Positions 8,272 to 18,393 of a stretch of DNA of 35,670 bases are shown piece after piece. Under the pieces are notes generated by a model, which saw nothing but the letters and a program-made list of their open reading frames with translations, searched no databases and was not told the origin of the DNA. The position numbers and the translations under genes were made by a program. This DNA is from Candidatus Polarisedimenticolaceae bacterium (GTDB lineage: Bacteria > Acidobacteriota > Polarisedimenticolia > Polarisedimenticolales > DASRJG01), in contig DASVAW010000030.1 in assembly GCA_036376135.1 (NCBI GenBank), forward strand, positions 1-35,670, written 5' to 3'. The stretch's first letter is position 1; the number at the start of each line of letters is the position of its first letter.

Positions 8272-9177
8272 ATGCATCGAGGGATGAAACGGTACCGCCG
8301 CGGGACGGTCGCGCTGATCCTCGGGGCGGTCGTCGGACTCGCCGGACGGGCGAACGCCGAGGAGCCGCCGGTTTGCGCGACGTGCCACGCCGACCTCTAC
8401 GAGGGCATGGCGAAGGTGAAGCACGGGAACGGCGAGGACGCACGCACGCCGTTCGGCAGCGGCCGGGCCTGCGAGGCGTGCCACGGCGACGCCTCCAGGC
8501 ACGCGGAGGATCCCGCGTCGGCCAAGCCGGCCGTGCTCTTCGGCAGGGGGCGGAACGTCGACGCCCAGAACGCGGCCTGCATGAACTGCCACCAGGGCGG
8601 GAACCAGATGCATTGGGTGGGCAGCGCCCACGACCGCTCGAAGGTCGCCTGCGCCGACTGTCACGATCCCCACGCGGCGAAGGACCAGGTGCTCGTCAAG
8701 GAGACCCAGGCGGGCGTCTGCTCGAACTGCCACAAGGACGTCCGCGCCGACCTGTTCCGCACCTCGACGCACCCGCTGCGCAGCGGGACGATGACGTGCT
8801 CGAACTGCCACAACCCGCACGGCTCGATCGCCGAAGCGCAGCTCGTGAAGAACACCGTGAACGAGACCTGCGCGCAGTGTCACGCCGACAAGCGCGGCCC
8901 GTTCCTCTGGGAACACCCGCCGGCGCGCGAGAACTGCGCCGAGTGCCACAACCCGCACGGGTCGAACAATCCGCCGCTGCTCCGCGCGCGCGGCCCGTAC
9001 CTCTGCCAGCAGTGCCACGCCAACCCCAACCACCCCTCCACGCTCTACAGCGGCAACAACCTTCCCGGCGCTCCGTCCGGGACGAGCTTCGACAAGATGC
9101 TCGGATCCAGCTGCCTGAACTGCCATCCGAAGGTCCATGGCTCCAACCATCCTTCCGGTGCGCGGTTCACCCGCTGA
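8272..9177 (+). CDS. Decaheme c-type cytochrome, DmsE/MtrA family, 301 aa
   Basis: Ten CXXCH haem-binding motifs are present, with first Cys at residues 35, 67, 103, 127, 150, 176, 200, 222, 245 and 281. A signal peptide precedes them (ends near GRANA, residue 29), so the protein is periplasmic. The purine-rich GGAAGGAAGGG at 8256-8266 selects ATG 8272 over the internal ATG 8284. Length and haem number match MtrA/DmsE/PioA. In that family the cytochrome is plugged inside an MtrB barrel and passes electrons between periplasm and cell surface. The next gene, 19 bases on, is such a barrel, which supports the assignment strongly. Direction of electron flow (metal reduction or oxidation, DMSO-type respiration) cannot be read from sequence. 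Confidence 0.95.
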   Translation: MHRGMKRYRRGTVALILGAVVGLAGRANAEEPPVCATCHADLYEGMAKVKHGNGEDARTPFGSGRACEACHGDASRHAEDPASAKPAVLFGRGRNVDAQNAACMNCHQGGNQMHWVGSAHDRSKVACADCHDPHAAKDQVLVKETQAGVCSNCHKDVRADLFRTSTHPLRSGTMTCSNCHNPHGSIAEAQLVKNTVNETCAQCHADKRGPFLWEHPPARENCAECHNPHGSNNPPLLRARGPYLCQQCHANPNHPSTLYSGNNLPGAPSGTSFDKMLGSSCLNCHPKVHGSNHPSGARFTR

Positions 9178-9196
9178 GGCGCGACGGAGGCCACGC

Positions 9197-11551
9197 ATGT
9201 CGACCAACACGAAGATCCTCGGCGCCCCGGTCCTCGTGCTCGCGCTCGGCTGGGCCGTCGCGTCGGCCGAACCCCTGCAGCAGGTCCCGCTGTATCCCGA
9301 TGCGGACATGACCCGGTACTCCGGGAACAACGTCGAGCTCGGCGCCGTGTACACCACCGACGATGCGTACAAGTTCGGCGAATACACCGGCCTCACCGAC
9401 GAGGGCGCCTACGCGCTCCTGAACCTCTTCTGGGGCGGGAAGCTCGGCGGCCGCAACGCGTGGTCGGTAGCCGCGACGAATCTCGGACTCGATTCGCGAA
9501 GCGTCGGCGCGCGGTTCGGCGCCCAGGGAGTCTGGTTCGTCGACGCCGATTTCCTCCAGCTCAACCGCGCGCAGTGGAGCGACGCGCGGTTCATTCACGA
9601 CGGGCTCGGGGGCCCGGTGCTGACGCTCCCCGCGGCCTTCCCCGGCCTTCCCGGGCAGCCCCCGACCAGCGCCGCGTCGATCGACCCGTACCTCAAGACC
9701 TTCGCCATCGAGCAGGGACGCGACGTCCTGCGCTTCGGCGGTGGCTGGCACTTCGCCAAGGCCTGGGTCGCCGAGCTGGGCTGGCAGCAGCTCCGCCGCG
9801 ACGGCAATCGCATCATCGGCGCCGTGATCGGCAACTCCGGCGGCAACCCGCGCGCCGTGCTGGTCCCGTACGAGATCGACGACGGCACGTCGAGCGCCGA
9901 GGCGATCGTCCGCTACCGGGGCGAGAAGTGGCAGGCGAACTTCCTCTACACGAGGTCGGACTACGCGTCCGACTCGAACACGCTGCAGTGGGCCAACCCG
10001 TACAACACCATCTCCGGCTGGAGCGCCGCCGCAGGATTCGAGGCGGGCGGTCAGGGGTTGCTCGAGCTGTATCCCGACAACGCGTACGAGCACTGGCAGG
10101 CGACCGGCGGGTTCAACTTCAACCGGAACCACCGGATCACCGGCACCGTCGCGTTCTCCACGCTCACCCAGAACGACGCGTTCCGGCCGTACAGCGTCAA
10201 CCCGGATCTGTATCCCACGCCGGCGACGGCGCTTCCGCGCACCTCGCTCGACGGGGAGATCCAGCACGCCCTCTACGACGTCGCCTACGTCGGCAAGTTC
10301 GCGAAGAACATCACGATCCGCGCGAGCGTGCACGCGAGCGAACACGACAACAACACGCCGACGGCGCAGTACCTCTACATCGGCGGCGACTCGCTGATCC
10401 AGGATGCGAGCCCGGTCGGCTCGAGCCGCGCGCGCGTCAACGTGGCGCTCGGAGGCTCGGAGACCCGCTGGCGCCTCGGCGCCGACTGGGCGTTCGCGCC
10501 CCGGTGGCTCGTCCGCGGCGAATACGAGACCAAGAAGGTCGAGTACGAGCCGGCGGAGGGGGAGCTGCGCGCGGAGACCACGACCGACCGCTTCGATCTC
10601 GAGGTGCGCCGGACCATGTCCGAGTTCTTCACGGGGTCGGTCCGCTACTCCGTCTCGGAGCGGACGGGTTCGGACCACGACAACGCCCGGCCGTTCGCCG
10701 AAGGGTACGAGCCGACGTATGTCGCCGCGACCCTCTACGACAACCTCCCGACGCTTCGGCAGTATTACGTGAGCGACTACGATCGCGAGCAGGTCCGCGT
10801 GATGGGGACGATCACCCCCTCGGACAAGATCGCAATCCAGCTCTACTTCGATCGCTACGCGCTCGACCATGGGGGGCCGGACTGTGGCGGCCCGAACGAC
10901 CAGGTCCTTCTGGGCGTCGTGCCCGCGTACACGTTCCCGTCGCAATGCCAGGGGCGCACGGCCGCGGACGGCGAGTCGTGGACCGCCGACATCCAGTGGA
11001 CGCCGGTGAAGTCGTGGTCGGCGTATGCGTTCTACACGAACTCCGAATACGTGAACGACCAGGCCGGTCGGCAGTATTCGGGGAATCCGGCCGCGACCGC
11101 GAAGTATCCCCAGAGCACGAGCACGAACCGCAACTGGTTCGTGAATCTCGACTACACCGACAAGACCCTGGGCGTGGGCCTGGGATTCCATCCGGAGGGG
11201 GCGAGGTTCGACGGCGGCGTCCAGTACGTCGGCAACGACGGCCGCGGCGCCACGACGCAGGTCGTGGACGCGAACTGGACCGTCGCGGCCCCCGATGTTC
11301 CGGCCCTCGCGGCGCCGACGCCCGTGCCCGATACGGTCGCCAGGTTGCAGTCGTGGCAGGCGTTCGGCCGGTGGAAGCTCGGCGCGGCCTTCGCCCTGCG
11401 GATCAACTACTGGTACGAGAGGCTCGACCAGAAGGACTGGGCGTACGACAACGCGACCCCGACCTCGTCCAACAACGTGATCCTCAACGGCCAGGCGACC
11501 CCGAACTACTCGAACAACGCCGTCGCCGTTTCCCTCGCCTGGACGAGATAG
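9197..11551 (+). CDS. MtrB/PioB-family outer-membrane beta-barrel, 784 aa
   Basis: The start is ATG 9197 (MSTNTKILGAPV), 6 bases after GGAGG. A signal peptide ends near VASA and the rest is a large barrel of alternating aromatic/polar strands ending in SLAWTR. The mature N-terminus (YSGNNVELGAVYTTDDAYKFGEYTGL) and the AYALLNLFWGG segment are typical of MtrB/PioB. It forms the sheath through which the decaheme cytochrome upstream crosses the outer membrane. The N-terminal CXXC of Shewanella MtrB is absent. No surface cytochrome of the MtrC/OmcA type follows. The gene ends against a terminator-like palindrome. Confidence 0.93.
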   Translation: MSTNTKILGAPVLVLALGWAVASAEPLQQVPLYPDADMTRYSGNNVELGAVYTTDDAYKFGEYTGLTDEGAYALLNLFWGGKLGGRNAWSVAATNLGLDSRSVGARFGAQGVWFVDADFLQLNRAQWSDARFIHDGLGGPVLTLPAAFPGLPGQPPTSAASIDPYLKTFAIEQGRDVLRFGGGWHFAKAWVAELGWQQLRRDGNRIIGAVIGNSGGNPRAVLVPYEIDDGTSSAEAIVRYRGEKWQANFLYTRSDYASDSNTLQWANPYNTISGWSAAAGFEAGGQGLLELYPDNAYEHWQATGGFNFNRNHRITGTVAFSTLTQNDAFRPYSVNPDLYPTPATALPRTSLDGEIQHALYDVAYVGKFAKNITIRASVHASEHDNNTPTAQYLYIGGDSLIQDASPVGSSRARVNVALGGSETRWRLGADWAFAPRWLVRGEYETKKVEYEPAEGELRAETTTDRFDLEVRRTMSEFFTGSVRYSVSERTGSDHDNARPFAEGYEPTYVAATLYDNLPTLRQYYVSDYDREQVRVMGTITPSDKIAIQLYFDRYALDHGGPDCGGPNDQVLLGVVPAYTFPSQCQGRTAADGESWTADIQWTPVKSWSAYAFYTNSEYVNDQAGRQYSGNPAATAKYPQSTSTNRNWFVNLDYTDKTLGVGLGFHPEGARFDGGVQYVGNDGRGATTQVVDANWTVAAPDVPALAAPTPVPDTVARLQSWQAFGRWKLGAAFALRINYWYERLDQKDWAYDNATPTSSNNVILNGQATPNYSNNAVAVSLAWTR

Positions 11552-11556
11552 CGAAG

Positions 11557-11581
11557 AAAGGGGTCAGGCCCCTTTTTCTTT
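11557..11581 (+). repeat. RAYT-associated palindrome, left copy; likely terminator of the MtrB-like gene
   Basis: AAAGGGG (11557-11563), loop TCAGG, CCCCTTT (11569-11575), then more T's and TTCTTT, 5 bases after the stop codon of the barrel gene. This is a textbook intrinsic terminator shape. A 27-base stretch (11557-11583) occurs inverted and identical at 12419-12445 or so on the far side of the transposase gene. Confidence 0.8.
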
Positions 11582-11699
11582 CAGAGTCGTGGGCTGGGTG
11601 GGGCCGACGTCTCGACGGCGTCCGGTTCGGGTTGCGCGTAGGAGACGGCGCCACCCGTCCGCCGGCTTGACACCGCGCCGCGAGCGACGTCACGATCCG

Positions 11700-11712
11700 G
11701 GGGCAGGTCCCC
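11700..11712 (+). repeat. Short GGGG-N5-CCCC hairpin before the RAYT start
   Basis: GGGG CAGGT CCCC has the same stem and loop size as the flanking palindromes but a shifted loop sequence. It may be a decayed copy or part of the end recognised by the transposase; chance is possible in GC-rich DNA. Confidence 0.3.
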
Positions 11713-11732
11713 GCCTCCGGAAGCTCGTACCC

Positions 11733-12440
11733 GTGCCCAGGAAACCCCGACTGTCCTTGCCGGGCGTCCACTTTCATGCGCTCAATCGGGCCGTCCGTCG
11801 CGAGCGCCTGTTCCACGAAGCACGCGACTACGACCGTTTCGCGGACCTGCTGCGGCAGGCTTCGAGGCGAATTCCAGTCTCGATCGTCGCGTGGTGCGTC
11901 ATGCCCAACCACGCGCACCTCGTCCTGAGACCCGACGCGCACGGCGCACTGTCGAAGTTCATGCACTGGGTGTTCTCGGTCCACGCTCAATTGCATCGAG
12001 AGAGGCGCGGGACGTCCGGCCACGTGTGGCAGGGTCGATTCAAGTCCTTCCCGGCGCAGCCGGATCGCCATCTCCTCAGTGTGATCCGATACGTCGAGCG
12101 GAATCCGGTGCGGGCGCGTCTCGTGGCGAGCGCGGAGGAATGGCCGTGGTCCAGCATCCGAGAACGCGAAGGGCTCCCGGGATGGCACGGGCTCATCGTC
12201 GCCGCACCGGTGGCGCTGCCGCAGCGCTGGATCGAGTACGTCAACGCGGAGCAGGCGCCGGAGGAGCTCGCCAAGCTGCGGCAGTCGTCCGAGAAGGGAG
12301 CGCCGTTCGGCGAAGCGAGTTGGGCTCGCGGGACGGCGGAACGACTCGGGCTCGAGTCGACGCTTCGACCGAGGGGTAGACCACGAGGCCCCGGCTCGCG
12401 CCGAGGCCTCTCCGTGAATTTGAAAGAAAAAGGGGCCTGA
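11733..12440 (+). CDS. REP-associated tyrosine transposase (RAYT), IS200-like Y1 family, 235 aa
   Basis: I took GTG 11733 (PRKPRLSLPGVHFHALNR) as start, with GGAAG about 10 bases upstream; the frame stays open further up but without family-like sequence. The HUH motif is H60-A-H62 (in MPNHAHLV), the catalytic Tyr is probably Y120 (SVIRYVERNPVRA), and HVWQGRFKS at 97-105 is a hallmark of RAYTs. These single-strand DNA transposases act on palindromic REP sequences. Two inverted copies of such a palindrome flank the gene, and its own stop codon TGA (12438-12440) lies inside the right copy. It sits between the ends of two convergent genes, where it damages neither. Confidence 0.9.
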   Translation: MPRKPRLSLPGVHFHALNRAVRRERLFHEARDYDRFADLLRQASRRIPVSIVAWCVMPNHAHLVLRPDAHGALSKFMHWVFSVHAQLHRERRGTSGHVWQGRFKSFPAQPDRHLLSVIRYVERNPVRARLVASAEEWPWSSIREREGLPGWHGLIVAAPVALPQRWIEYVNAEQAPEELAKLRQSSEKGAPFGEASWARGTAERLGLESTLRPRGRPRGPGSRRGLSVNLKEKGA

Positions 12441-12448
12441 CCCCTTTT
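12427..12448 (-). repeat. RAYT-associated palindrome, right copy; likely terminator of the porin operon
   Basis: On the minus strand AAAAGGGG, loop TCAGG, CCCCTTTT and further T's begin 10 bases after the TAG of the porin gene (12459-12461). It is an inverted copy of the left repeat. On the plus strand the same bases encode the last residues of the RAYT. Confidence 0.8.
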
Positions 12449-12458
12449 CTACCCTTTT

Positions 12459-13553
12459 CTAGAACTGGAACAGCTGGAGTTGAATGAGGAACTGGTTGCG
12501 GTCGGGGAGTCCGTCGGTGGAGATCCGGGCCGCGCTGGCCTTCAGGCTGCGCTGGTGCCCCTTCATCCACCACGCGAAGCCCACGCCGGCGACGTCCTGG
12601 TCGGCGGTCGCCGCGTCGTCGAAATCGCGCGCCGCGTACTGCACGAACGGGGAGAACCGCCCCTTGCCGAAGTGATACCCGAGCTCGACGAGCCCGGCGG
12701 TCTGCTTCGCCAGCGACGTCATGAACGTGCCGCCGTCGATCGACGTGTAGTCGGCCTGGATCGTGATGCCCTGCTGGCCGCCGGCGATCGGCCAGTCCCA
12801 GAACACGTCGGCGCCGTACAACGCGTAGTCCTTCTGCACGTCGTAGGATGCGCCGATCGCGAGGATCTTCTTCGTGCCGTGGTACGTCCCGCCGTAGAAG
12901 AACCCGGTCTCCGCCTCGAACGGGTACCACACGAGCCGACCGCTGGTGCGGAACGCGTTCTGCGCCCCCGGGCCGCGGACCCCCTGGAAGACCCCCAGCC
13001 GGTACTCGAGCTTCTTGCCGAACGGATACCCGCGGACCTGGACGCCGTAGTCGCGTCCGACGCGCTCGCCGGCGGCGGTGCTCTCCAGGAACGAGTAGGG
13101 GCCGTAGTCCACCGGGAGCAGCGTTGCCGCGCTCTGGATGTGGTTGTGCGACAGCGGGAACAGCATCATCCCCGCGTCGACCTTGAACGCGTCGGCGTGG
13201 TCGTAGGTGAGGAACGCGTCCTGGATGTACACGTCGCTCGACCCCTTGGCGCCGGTGGGGTTCGCCTCCGTGTCGGGATCGGTCTTGCCGATGTTCGGGC
13301 TGTCGGTCTCGAAGAAGAACAGCCACTTCTCCGCGACCTTCCCGCCGAACAGGATGCGGAACCGGCGCAGGAACAGGTTCTGCGAGGTCCCTTCGCCGTC
13401 GGGCATCTCGAGCGCCTCTCCCTGGGCCTGGAGCAGGAAGCCCAGTTTCATCGACGCCTTGCCGTCCTTGCTCTCGATCTGCAACTGCGCGAACGCGGGG
13501 GCCGAACACGCGAGGAACGCGGCGCCCGCCAGGATGAAACGTCGTGCGATCAC
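12459..13553 (-). CDS. OprO/OprP-like outer-membrane porin, 364 aa
   Basis: GTG 13553 follows AGGAGG closely and begins a clear signal peptide (ending SAPAFA). The mature part reads as a porin barrel: KASMKLGFLLQAQGEA, then repeated aromatic strands, LRRFRILFGGKVAEKWLFFFETD, and a final Phe (QLFQF), the usual barrel insertion signal. It resembles the phosphate-selective porin O/P family, though family members take other anions too. The gene lies 9 bases after the acetate symporter gene, so it may let carboxylates through the outer membrane rather than phosphate. That substrate is inferred from position only. Confidence 0.85.
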   Translation of the reverse strand: MIARRFILAGAAFLACSAPAFAQLQIESKDGKASMKLGFLLQAQGEALEMPDGEGTSQNLFLRRFRILFGGKVAEKWLFFFETDSPNIGKTDPDTEANPTGAKGSSDVYIQDAFLTYDHADAFKVDAGMMLFPLSHNHIQSAATLLPVDYGPYSFLESTAAGERVGRDYGVQVRGYPFGKKLEYRLGVFQGVRGPGAQNAFRTSGRLVWYPFEAETGFFYGGTYHGTKKILAIGASYDVQKDYALYGADVFWDWPIAGGQQGITIQADYTSIDGGTFMTSLAKQTAGLVELGYHFGKGRFSPFVQYAARDFDDAATADQDVAGVGFAWWMKGHQRSLKASAARISTDGLPDRNQFLIQLQLFQF

Positions 13554-17916: not shown

Positions 17917-17937
17917 AAAAGGGGCCTGGCCCCTTTT
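17917..17937 (-). repeat. Solo copy of the RAYT palindrome; likely terminator after the YHS gene
   Basis: A 21-base perfect palindrome: AAAAGGGGCC, one central base, GGCCCCTTTT. It is the same element as those around the RAYT gene with two loop changes that restore full pairing. It begins 3 bases after the TGA of the YHS gene and fills the gap to the DUF294 gene. Confidence 0.75.
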
Positions 17938-17940
17938 CGG

Positions 17941-18393
17941 TCAGCGTCCCTTCTTCTCGACGAGCTTCGGCCAGTTGGCCTCGGCGTCCCGGGTGTGTCC
18001 CGCGACGTCGGCGTCGAACGCCTTCTTGATGTCGGCGTTCTTGTTGAGGATCAGGCGCCCGCCGAGGAGCTGCCACGTCGAGATCTCGACGGGCGCGAGC
18101 GCGTTCTTCGCGACGCCGTACGCGCAGTAGCCGCCGTAGGCGGGAGCGTACTTCGCGGGGTCCTTGTCGAACAGCGCCTTGTGTTCGGCGGTGGCGAAGC
18201 GATACGTGGCGCCTTCGTACGTGGAGGTGAACGTCGCGATCCCGAGGAGGGGTTTCCCGACGGTGACGAAGCCGACGGCGTCGTACCCCTGGAGCGCGAG
18301 CCCCGAGGCGTCGGTGTTGACGAGGTCCTTGGCGAGCGCGGCGCCGGAAGCGAAGACGGCGACGGCGGCGAAGCTCAGCAGGCGTCGGATCAT
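17941..18393 (-). CDS. Exported YHS-domain protein, 150 aa
   Basis: ATG 18393 follows GGAGAA and starts a signal peptide (MIRRLLSFAAVAVFASGAALA). The rest is a YHS-like fold: ALQGYDAVGF, then FTSTYEGATYRFATAEHKALFDKDPAKYAPAYGGYCAYGVA. YHS domains bind metal or act in metal-handling proteins, and this variant (often annotated YHS domain-containing, in copper/haem contexts) is periplasmic. The C-terminus (KAFDADVAGHTRDAEANWPKLV) is also characteristic. Its precise ligand is not known. The gene is 59 bases after the DUF4442 gene and ends at a RAYT-type palindrome. Confidence 0.88.
   Translation of the reverse strand: MIRRLLSFAAVAVFASGAALAKDLVNTDASGLALQGYDAVGFVTVGKPLLGIATFTSTYEGATYRFATAEHKALFDKDPAKYAPAYGGYCAYGVAKNALAPVEISTWQLLGGRLILNKNADIKKAFDADVAGHTRDAEANWPKLVEKKGR

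Follow-up and report, generated by a model that had tools for sequence, protein, structure and literature searches.

A transposase gene that stands between two convergent genes, framed by palindromes that resemble terminators, raises the question of what brings such repeats to stop codons: the mobility of an element, a service of transcription termination to the host, or survival in the few places where an insertion does no harm. The window, a stretch of 35,670 nucleotides from a Candidatus Polarisedimenticolaceae bacterium, corresponds to contig C30 of a 4.38 Mb genome (97.6% complete, 179 contigs), in which the coding share is 95%; the G+C content of the window is 70%. The features of the locus, and a further copy of its palindrome in the same window (family F1 below), are as follows.

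9137 to 11551, + strand: gene for an MtrB/PioB-type outer-membrane beta-barrel protein (PF11854, E=2.7e-87; TIGR03509), TAG stop at 11549-11551
11557 to 11583, + strand: left terminal inverted repeat (TIR), an F1 palindrome with T-run, 5 nt past the TAG of the MtrB/PioB gene
11733 to 12440, + strand: RAYT-type Y1/HUH transposase gene (PF01797, NF047646), TGA stop within the right repeat
12421 to 12447, - strand: right TIR, an inverted copy of the left one, holding the transposase TGA (12438-12440)
12459 to 13553, - strand: convergent porin gene (Porin_O_P / ExtI-like; PF07396, E=1.5e-9), stop at 12459-12461
17918 to 17936, - strand: solo copy of F1 in its CCAGG variant, lying 4 nt beyond the stop of a gene at 17941-18393 (-); the next co-directional start follows after 26 nt

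The core of the preliminary description, a RAYT-type transposase between inverted 27-nt copies of one repeat, was confirmed. The exact 26-mer AAAGGGGTCAGGCCCCTTTTTCTTTC occupies 11557-11582 (+) and 12422-12447 (-), while 100 shuffled controls gave 0 matches, and the inverted arm is identical over 27 nt and 94% identical over 32 nt. The transposase, whose GTG start at 11733 was picked from the (V/M)PRKPRL N-terminus, matches the Pfam family Y1_Tnp (PF01797) with E=4e-14 to 6e-14 and the NCBIfam model 'REP-associated tyrosine transposase' (NF047646) with 77.1 bits, just short of the cut-off of 80; the motifs NHAH and RYVERNPVRA are seen in its translation, and it carries a C-terminal extension in which no second Pfam family was detected at E<=10. 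Its host codon score is 15, as against 399 and 222 for the two neighbours, which marks the gene as compositionally foreign or unusual. Both repeat copies had been described as standing directly after the stop codons of different genes, and these are indeed two convergent genes, but the actual spacing is 5 nt on the left and 11 nt on the right, where the repeat begins beyond the TAG of the ExtI-like porin gene. To this can be added that the reading frame of the transposase enters the right repeat and ends at a TGA inside the palindrome. As to the neighbours, the codon-usage gene finder favours 9197 over 9137 as the start of the MtrB/PioB gene, and NF040900 scores 86.8 bits on the porin gene, under its cut-off of 150. 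Genes for a multihaem cytochrome c, the MtrB/PioB barrel and the ExtI-like porin are consecutive at 8284-13553, a row that suggests extracellular electron transfer, with the element between the last two genes.

The palindrome is dispersed through the genome. There are 31 exact copies of GGGGTCAGGCCCC in the 4.38 Mb, versus 0 for the reversed control. A search with AAAGGGGTCAGGCCCCTTT at up to three mismatches gave 73 matches, which represent 38 distinct sites of the 19-nt F1 palindrome (26 match exactly and 12 have one mismatch); the other matches fall on the reverse strand of sites already counted. These sites group into 31 units, namely 24 solo copies and seven inverted pairs, one of which encloses the transposase. 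Two 13-mer matches, at C94:36681 and C179:18441, have no flanks, lie at or in genes and were excluded from the 38. An A is found at position -1 of the repeat edge in 31/35 cases for F1, as well as in 49/53 for a second family of the same genome (F2), 14/16 in G006 (same order, other family) and 11/15 in G001 (same family). The idea of a set four-base target, for example GTAG, was rejected, as the edge columns show a strong A at -1 only and no four conserved bases.

The position of the units relative to genes was determined with a self-written, unpublished codon-usage gene finder, whose starts are approximate and whose stops are fixed by the frame, and the control consisted of 311 kb (14 stretches of 16-20 kb and the window). 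F1 copies hug stop codons: an in-frame stop lies between -4 and +13 nt from the AAAGGGG edge at 31 of the 38 sites, and at least one facing stop falls in this range for 29 of the 31 units (the exceptions being those on C114 and C117), while a facing stop within 13 nt is found for 13% of the intergenic bases of the control. This genome-wide count of copies and stop distances, which the preliminary description had put forward as a check, excludes random placement. Among the 25 units that could be resolved, 15 are convergent, 10 co-directional and none divergent; of the others, five were not placed (contig ends or distant calls) and one lies within a gene. Control gene pairs are convergent in 29, co-directional in 202 and divergent in 27 cases (n=258), which gives a convergent enrichment of 15/25 versus 29/258 (p=8e-8). 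In convergent junctions, closeness to stops is partly forced because convergent genes in the control stand close together (median gap about 3 nt), and many of them overlap by 4 nt. It is not forced in the 10 co-directional junctions, in all of which the copy keeps within -1 to 10 nt of the stop but stays 14-137 nt away from the start (KS p=0.001). An overlap of exactly 4 nt is frequent among the convergent control pairs of L059-L072 and the window, in several cases at CTAG, where two TAG stops share one palindrome.

One F1 19-mer is found inside a gene. It is exact, with about 25 nt fitting the family consensus, and lies at positions 1498-1516 of locus L019 (C117:4858-4876) in a gene named malate-synthase-like from its translation. 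The 19-mer sits at the motif EKGSGPFFYLPKM, and the length is unchanged versus orthologs; the gene has Phe at this place and the aligned relatives have Tyr (10/11) or Cys (1/11). Moreover, the four most deviant of its 516 codon windows are at or just past the 19-mer. This looks like in-place overwriting and not insertion, although it is a candidate case for which an assembly error is possible.

A second RAYT gene of the same genome (C179; L031 1296-2199) is framed by another repeat, TTAAATAGGGACAGCAACCTATTTC, identical over 25 nt, and each of the two RAYTs is single-copy. The F2 family comprises 74 sites (at up to three mismatches) in 46 units. Its stop is often within the repeat itself (AAA TAG or TAA ATG GGG); the TAG of the second RAYT falls inside its own right repeat, and both of its convergent neighbours have their stops inside its repeats. 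A left stop within the tested range of -8 to 13 nt was found for 50/74 sites and a stop within -5 to 13 nt for 35/46 units, and convergent junctions account for 26 of the 33 resolved units (p=8e-16). F2 forms a weak hairpin (-5.7 to -6.9 kcal/mol) that no T-run follows. F2 is thus placed like F1 without the features of a terminator, which indicates that the placement does not need terminator function, and it is the main evidence against termination as what positions the repeats. One F2 pair lies in frame within a putatively dnaE2-like ORF (L183; C3:14508-14565); REPs inside dnaE2 genes are mentioned in an earlier report (PMC3733652).

Comparison with a relative of the same family indicates what the gene ends look like when no element is present. 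For 10 of the 101 genes adjacent to F1 or F2, an ortholog (at least 45% identity and at least 70% coverage) was found in the 1.185 Mb sampled from G001. Eight of these 10 orthologous ends have no element, and the remaining two face each other across a single conserved convergent junction, which in G001 is occupied by another repeat family. This junction (L179; L233 13900-14160) contains an F2 pair in the genome studied here and a pair of the G001 family in G001, and, as the one syntenic case found, it suggests that such convergent junctions are repeated landing places. Protein ends are stable, agreeing within 2 residues in 8 of the 10 orthologs (6 and 12 residues in the others) versus 25/35 control genes. 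On the other hand, the same stop type is kept in 0/10 element-adjacent genes versus 17/35 controls (p=0.007). Stops beside elements (n=101) are TAG in 50, TAA in 31 and TGA in 20 cases, and the genome (n=253) uses TGA in 173, TAG in 63 and TAA in 17. This shift means either that the element supplies the stop, as is evident in the F2 core, or that TA-type sites are preferred; for F1, either may apply. A preference for TA-type stops could replace the writing of stops by the element, because controls limited to TAG/TAA stops keep the type in only 4/12 orthologs.

The same kind of arrangement recurs in other genomes. GGGGTCAGGCCCC occurs in 15 of 60 relatives, mostly in one or two copies; it was not found in G001, and G006 has 16 copies, 10 of which have a left stop within 17 nt. 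One G006 pair frames a RAYT only 31% identical to that of the window, so the inheritance of the near-identical palindrome and that of the transposase are not strictly coupled. In the 1.185 Mb sampled from G001, a repeat of that genome's own, GGGGACAGTAACC, occurs 15 times, and for 9 of these copies a left stop lies at -11 to 13 nt. G008, of the same genus as G006, had to be rejected as an empty control: it has 0 exact 13-mers but a RAYT with a one-base-variant repeat, GGGGTCAGGCACC (L227) as compared with GGGGTCAGGCCCC in G006 (L154), with a similar left flank, which suggests co-evolution of repeat and transposase. G042 was rejected as an F1 carrier, its five matches having no AAA/TTT flanks and lying far from stops or in a gene; they appear to be due to chance or to another family. 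Transposases 42-53% identical to that of the window are found in Planctomycetota, Nitrospirota and others. Of 80 related loci retained from 485 matching stretches, 55 have inverted repeats of at least 12 nt. For the 44 loci with repeats of at least 13 nt and enough flank, an ORF stop lies within -15 to 30 nt of the left edge in 16, of the right edge in 7 and of both in 0, compared with 7% at random places. Repeats framing related transposases in other phyla are thus near stops too, more weakly than in G001, and the absence of stops at both edges in these 44 loci indicates that stops lying close on both sides are a peculiarity of this compact genome and related ones.

With regard to termination, F1 combines a GC stem with an A-run and a T-run on both strands, and each strand is predicted to fold (-12.2 and -11.0 kcal/mol), in line with the earlier statement that each of the two copies has a stem plus T-run. 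A hairpin-plus-T rule holds at 26/44 F1-bearing gene ends, 4/64 gene ends near the F2 core, and 3/221 and 8/983 control gene ends in this genome and in G001, respectively. F1 palindromes are absent from the list produced by a generic consensus terminator scan, probably due to pairing of the T-run with the A-run. F1 can be regarded as a predicted two-way intrinsic terminator. For approximately 3,500 genes, a number scaled up from 253 gene ends in 311 kb, one would expect very roughly 50 other T-run terminators at the control rate, so that F1 could make up about a third, with a wide interval. Of nine sites with a single-base change in the core, 8 have C-G or U-A in place of the U.G pair beside the loop, and these probably stem from two lineages only.

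Taken together, the locus is most likely a mobile element of the TIRYT type ('TIRtron'), with a RAYT-like transposase, its own TIRs and a non-autonomously dispersed F1 family, whose terminator capacity is plausibly a by-product and not the cause of its placement. The non-autonomous copies would be inverted pairs (REPIN-like) or solo remnants. The transposase, or its past activity, may have copied the repeats into the few non-coding spots that are tolerated, with insertion at or a few bases from existing stop codons, where the A-rich end of the element would often complete the stop or supply a new one; the ends of the transposon tolerate such sites and perhaps seek them. For F1, the perfect hairpin with A- and T-runs would additionally make each copy a two-way terminator, a by-product that selection could retain. 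What weighs against this explanation is that movement has not been seen and that both RAYTs are single-copy. The same holds for the edge columns, which conserve nothing beyond the A, for the partly forced closeness to stops in convergent gaps, for the controls limited to TAG/TAA stops, for the HTH domain not detected, for the weakly related RAYT framed in G006 and for the two F1 units that have no facing stop in range.

Several other explanations have to be set against it. The palindromes could primarily be bidirectional terminators for convergent genes, so that the service to the host keeps the module and its copies. The folding of F1, the rate of T-run hairpins at its gene ends relative to both controls, the core variants that change the pair beside the loop, and solo copies that fill whole convergent gaps all argue for such a role. 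Nevertheless, F2 takes up the same places without a terminator, the typical sequences of G001, G008 and the common TIR types fail the rule, and the copies on C15, C63 and at C30:17918 lie 14-26 nt before a co-directional start, where an efficient terminator would keep the following gene from being transcribed. Termination as the primary role is therefore unlikely. The proposal that the module serves as a terminator for both flanking genes is retained as a predicted capacity that does not explain placement, and the further proposal that termination gives the host its reason to keep the module is not supported, given the behaviour of F2. A better chance, though still short of even, can be given to insertion anywhere followed by purifying selection, with survival in tiny non-coding gaps only and closeness to stops as an automatic result. 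This would suit a genome with such a high coding share and such short convergent gaps, and the in-frame survival of the F2 pair in the dnaE2-like ORF also speaks for it. However, 15 of 16 co-directional units (10 F1 and 6 F2) have a stop within -5 to 10 nt despite more room on the start side, and divergent gaps (control median 103 nt), in which promoters are also selected against, hold 0/25 F1 and 1/33 F2 resolved units.

It is also conceivable, but rather improbable, that the copies play the part of REPs at the 3' ends of mRNAs, where a hairpin within about 15 nt of the stop would stall ribosomes and tune or stabilise the upstream mRNA. In E. coli, REPs less than 16 nt from stops are reported to down-regulate translation (PMC12306157, citing earlier work), the spacing observed here is in that range, and hairpins are formed by both F1 and F2; yet in many cases, above all in F2, the stop falls on the repeat itself, and the repeats typically found at transposases of other phyla show hardly any folding (-1.8 kcal/mol). 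The most far-reaching possibility, and an improbable one, is that of mobile gene-end cassettes, which would home to stops, rewrite or complete the stop and keep the protein end, with F1 adding a two-way terminator and the spread occurring maybe by in-place overwriting; the latter is proposed because the F1 19-mer replaces the malate synthase motif with the length unchanged.

Should the pattern be causal, a transposase that looks domesticated would be re-engineering gene ends genome-wide, with new stops, terminators and convergent spacers; if it is not, the locus still shows clearly that palindromes found behind stop codons can be the ends of transposons. The presence of the terminator-like F1 beside the non-terminator F2 makes target choice, survival and termination directly testable against each other.

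Most of these features have counterparts in known systems. TIRYT genes are flanked by inverted GGGGWSAS repeats, with families occurring in dimers, and REPs have been reported under 20 bp away from the 3' ends of both genes of a convergent pair, with REP ends often giving a TAG stop (Di Nocera et al. 2013, PMC3733652); TIRYTs fall mostly in TnpA_REP subclass 2.1 (Quentin et al. 2018, PMC6006769). Among open-licence papers, the TIRYT names turned up in these two reports only. RAYTs are described as always lying between inverted REPs, sometimes with a REP right after the rayt stop, and the same report notes no sign of RAYT self-movement (Nunvar et al. 2010, PMC2817692). In the accessible parts of the open-licence literature on REP/RAYT, terminators, stop codons and convergent genes, no treatment of TIR repeats as terminators was found. 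The element resembles an intrinsic bidirectional terminator in its GC stem, its A-run/T-run on both strands and its position right after stops, but differs in that F1 is part of a mobile repeat family and its terminator role is predicted. It shares with GTAG REP/RAYT systems (REPtron, REPIN, BIME) the palindromes that frame a transposase in inverted orientation and the dispersed inverted pairs, whereas F1 has no GTAG head and its flanking columns no conserved tetranucleotide. With TnpA_REP subclass 2.1 it shares a RAYT-like Y1 protein and flanking GGGG[AT][CG]A[CG] inverted repeats, although the C-terminal HTH domain reported for that subclass was not detected here (Pfam, E<=10). The closest match is TIRYT/TIRtron: a RAYT-like Y1 transposase is framed by GGGGWSAS inverted repeats, here as GGGGTCAG in both 27-nt repeats; copies are dispersed as dimers and singles, here as seven inverted pairs among 31 units; some repeats are self-complementary, and repeats may overlap the transposase gene end. 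What sets the present case apart is that two systems occur in one high-GC genome with the stops of neighbours on both outer sides of each, that the right repeat of each system supplies the transposase stop, and that F1 is additionally terminator-like. The element is thus a known type of repeat and transposase in an unusually clean case.
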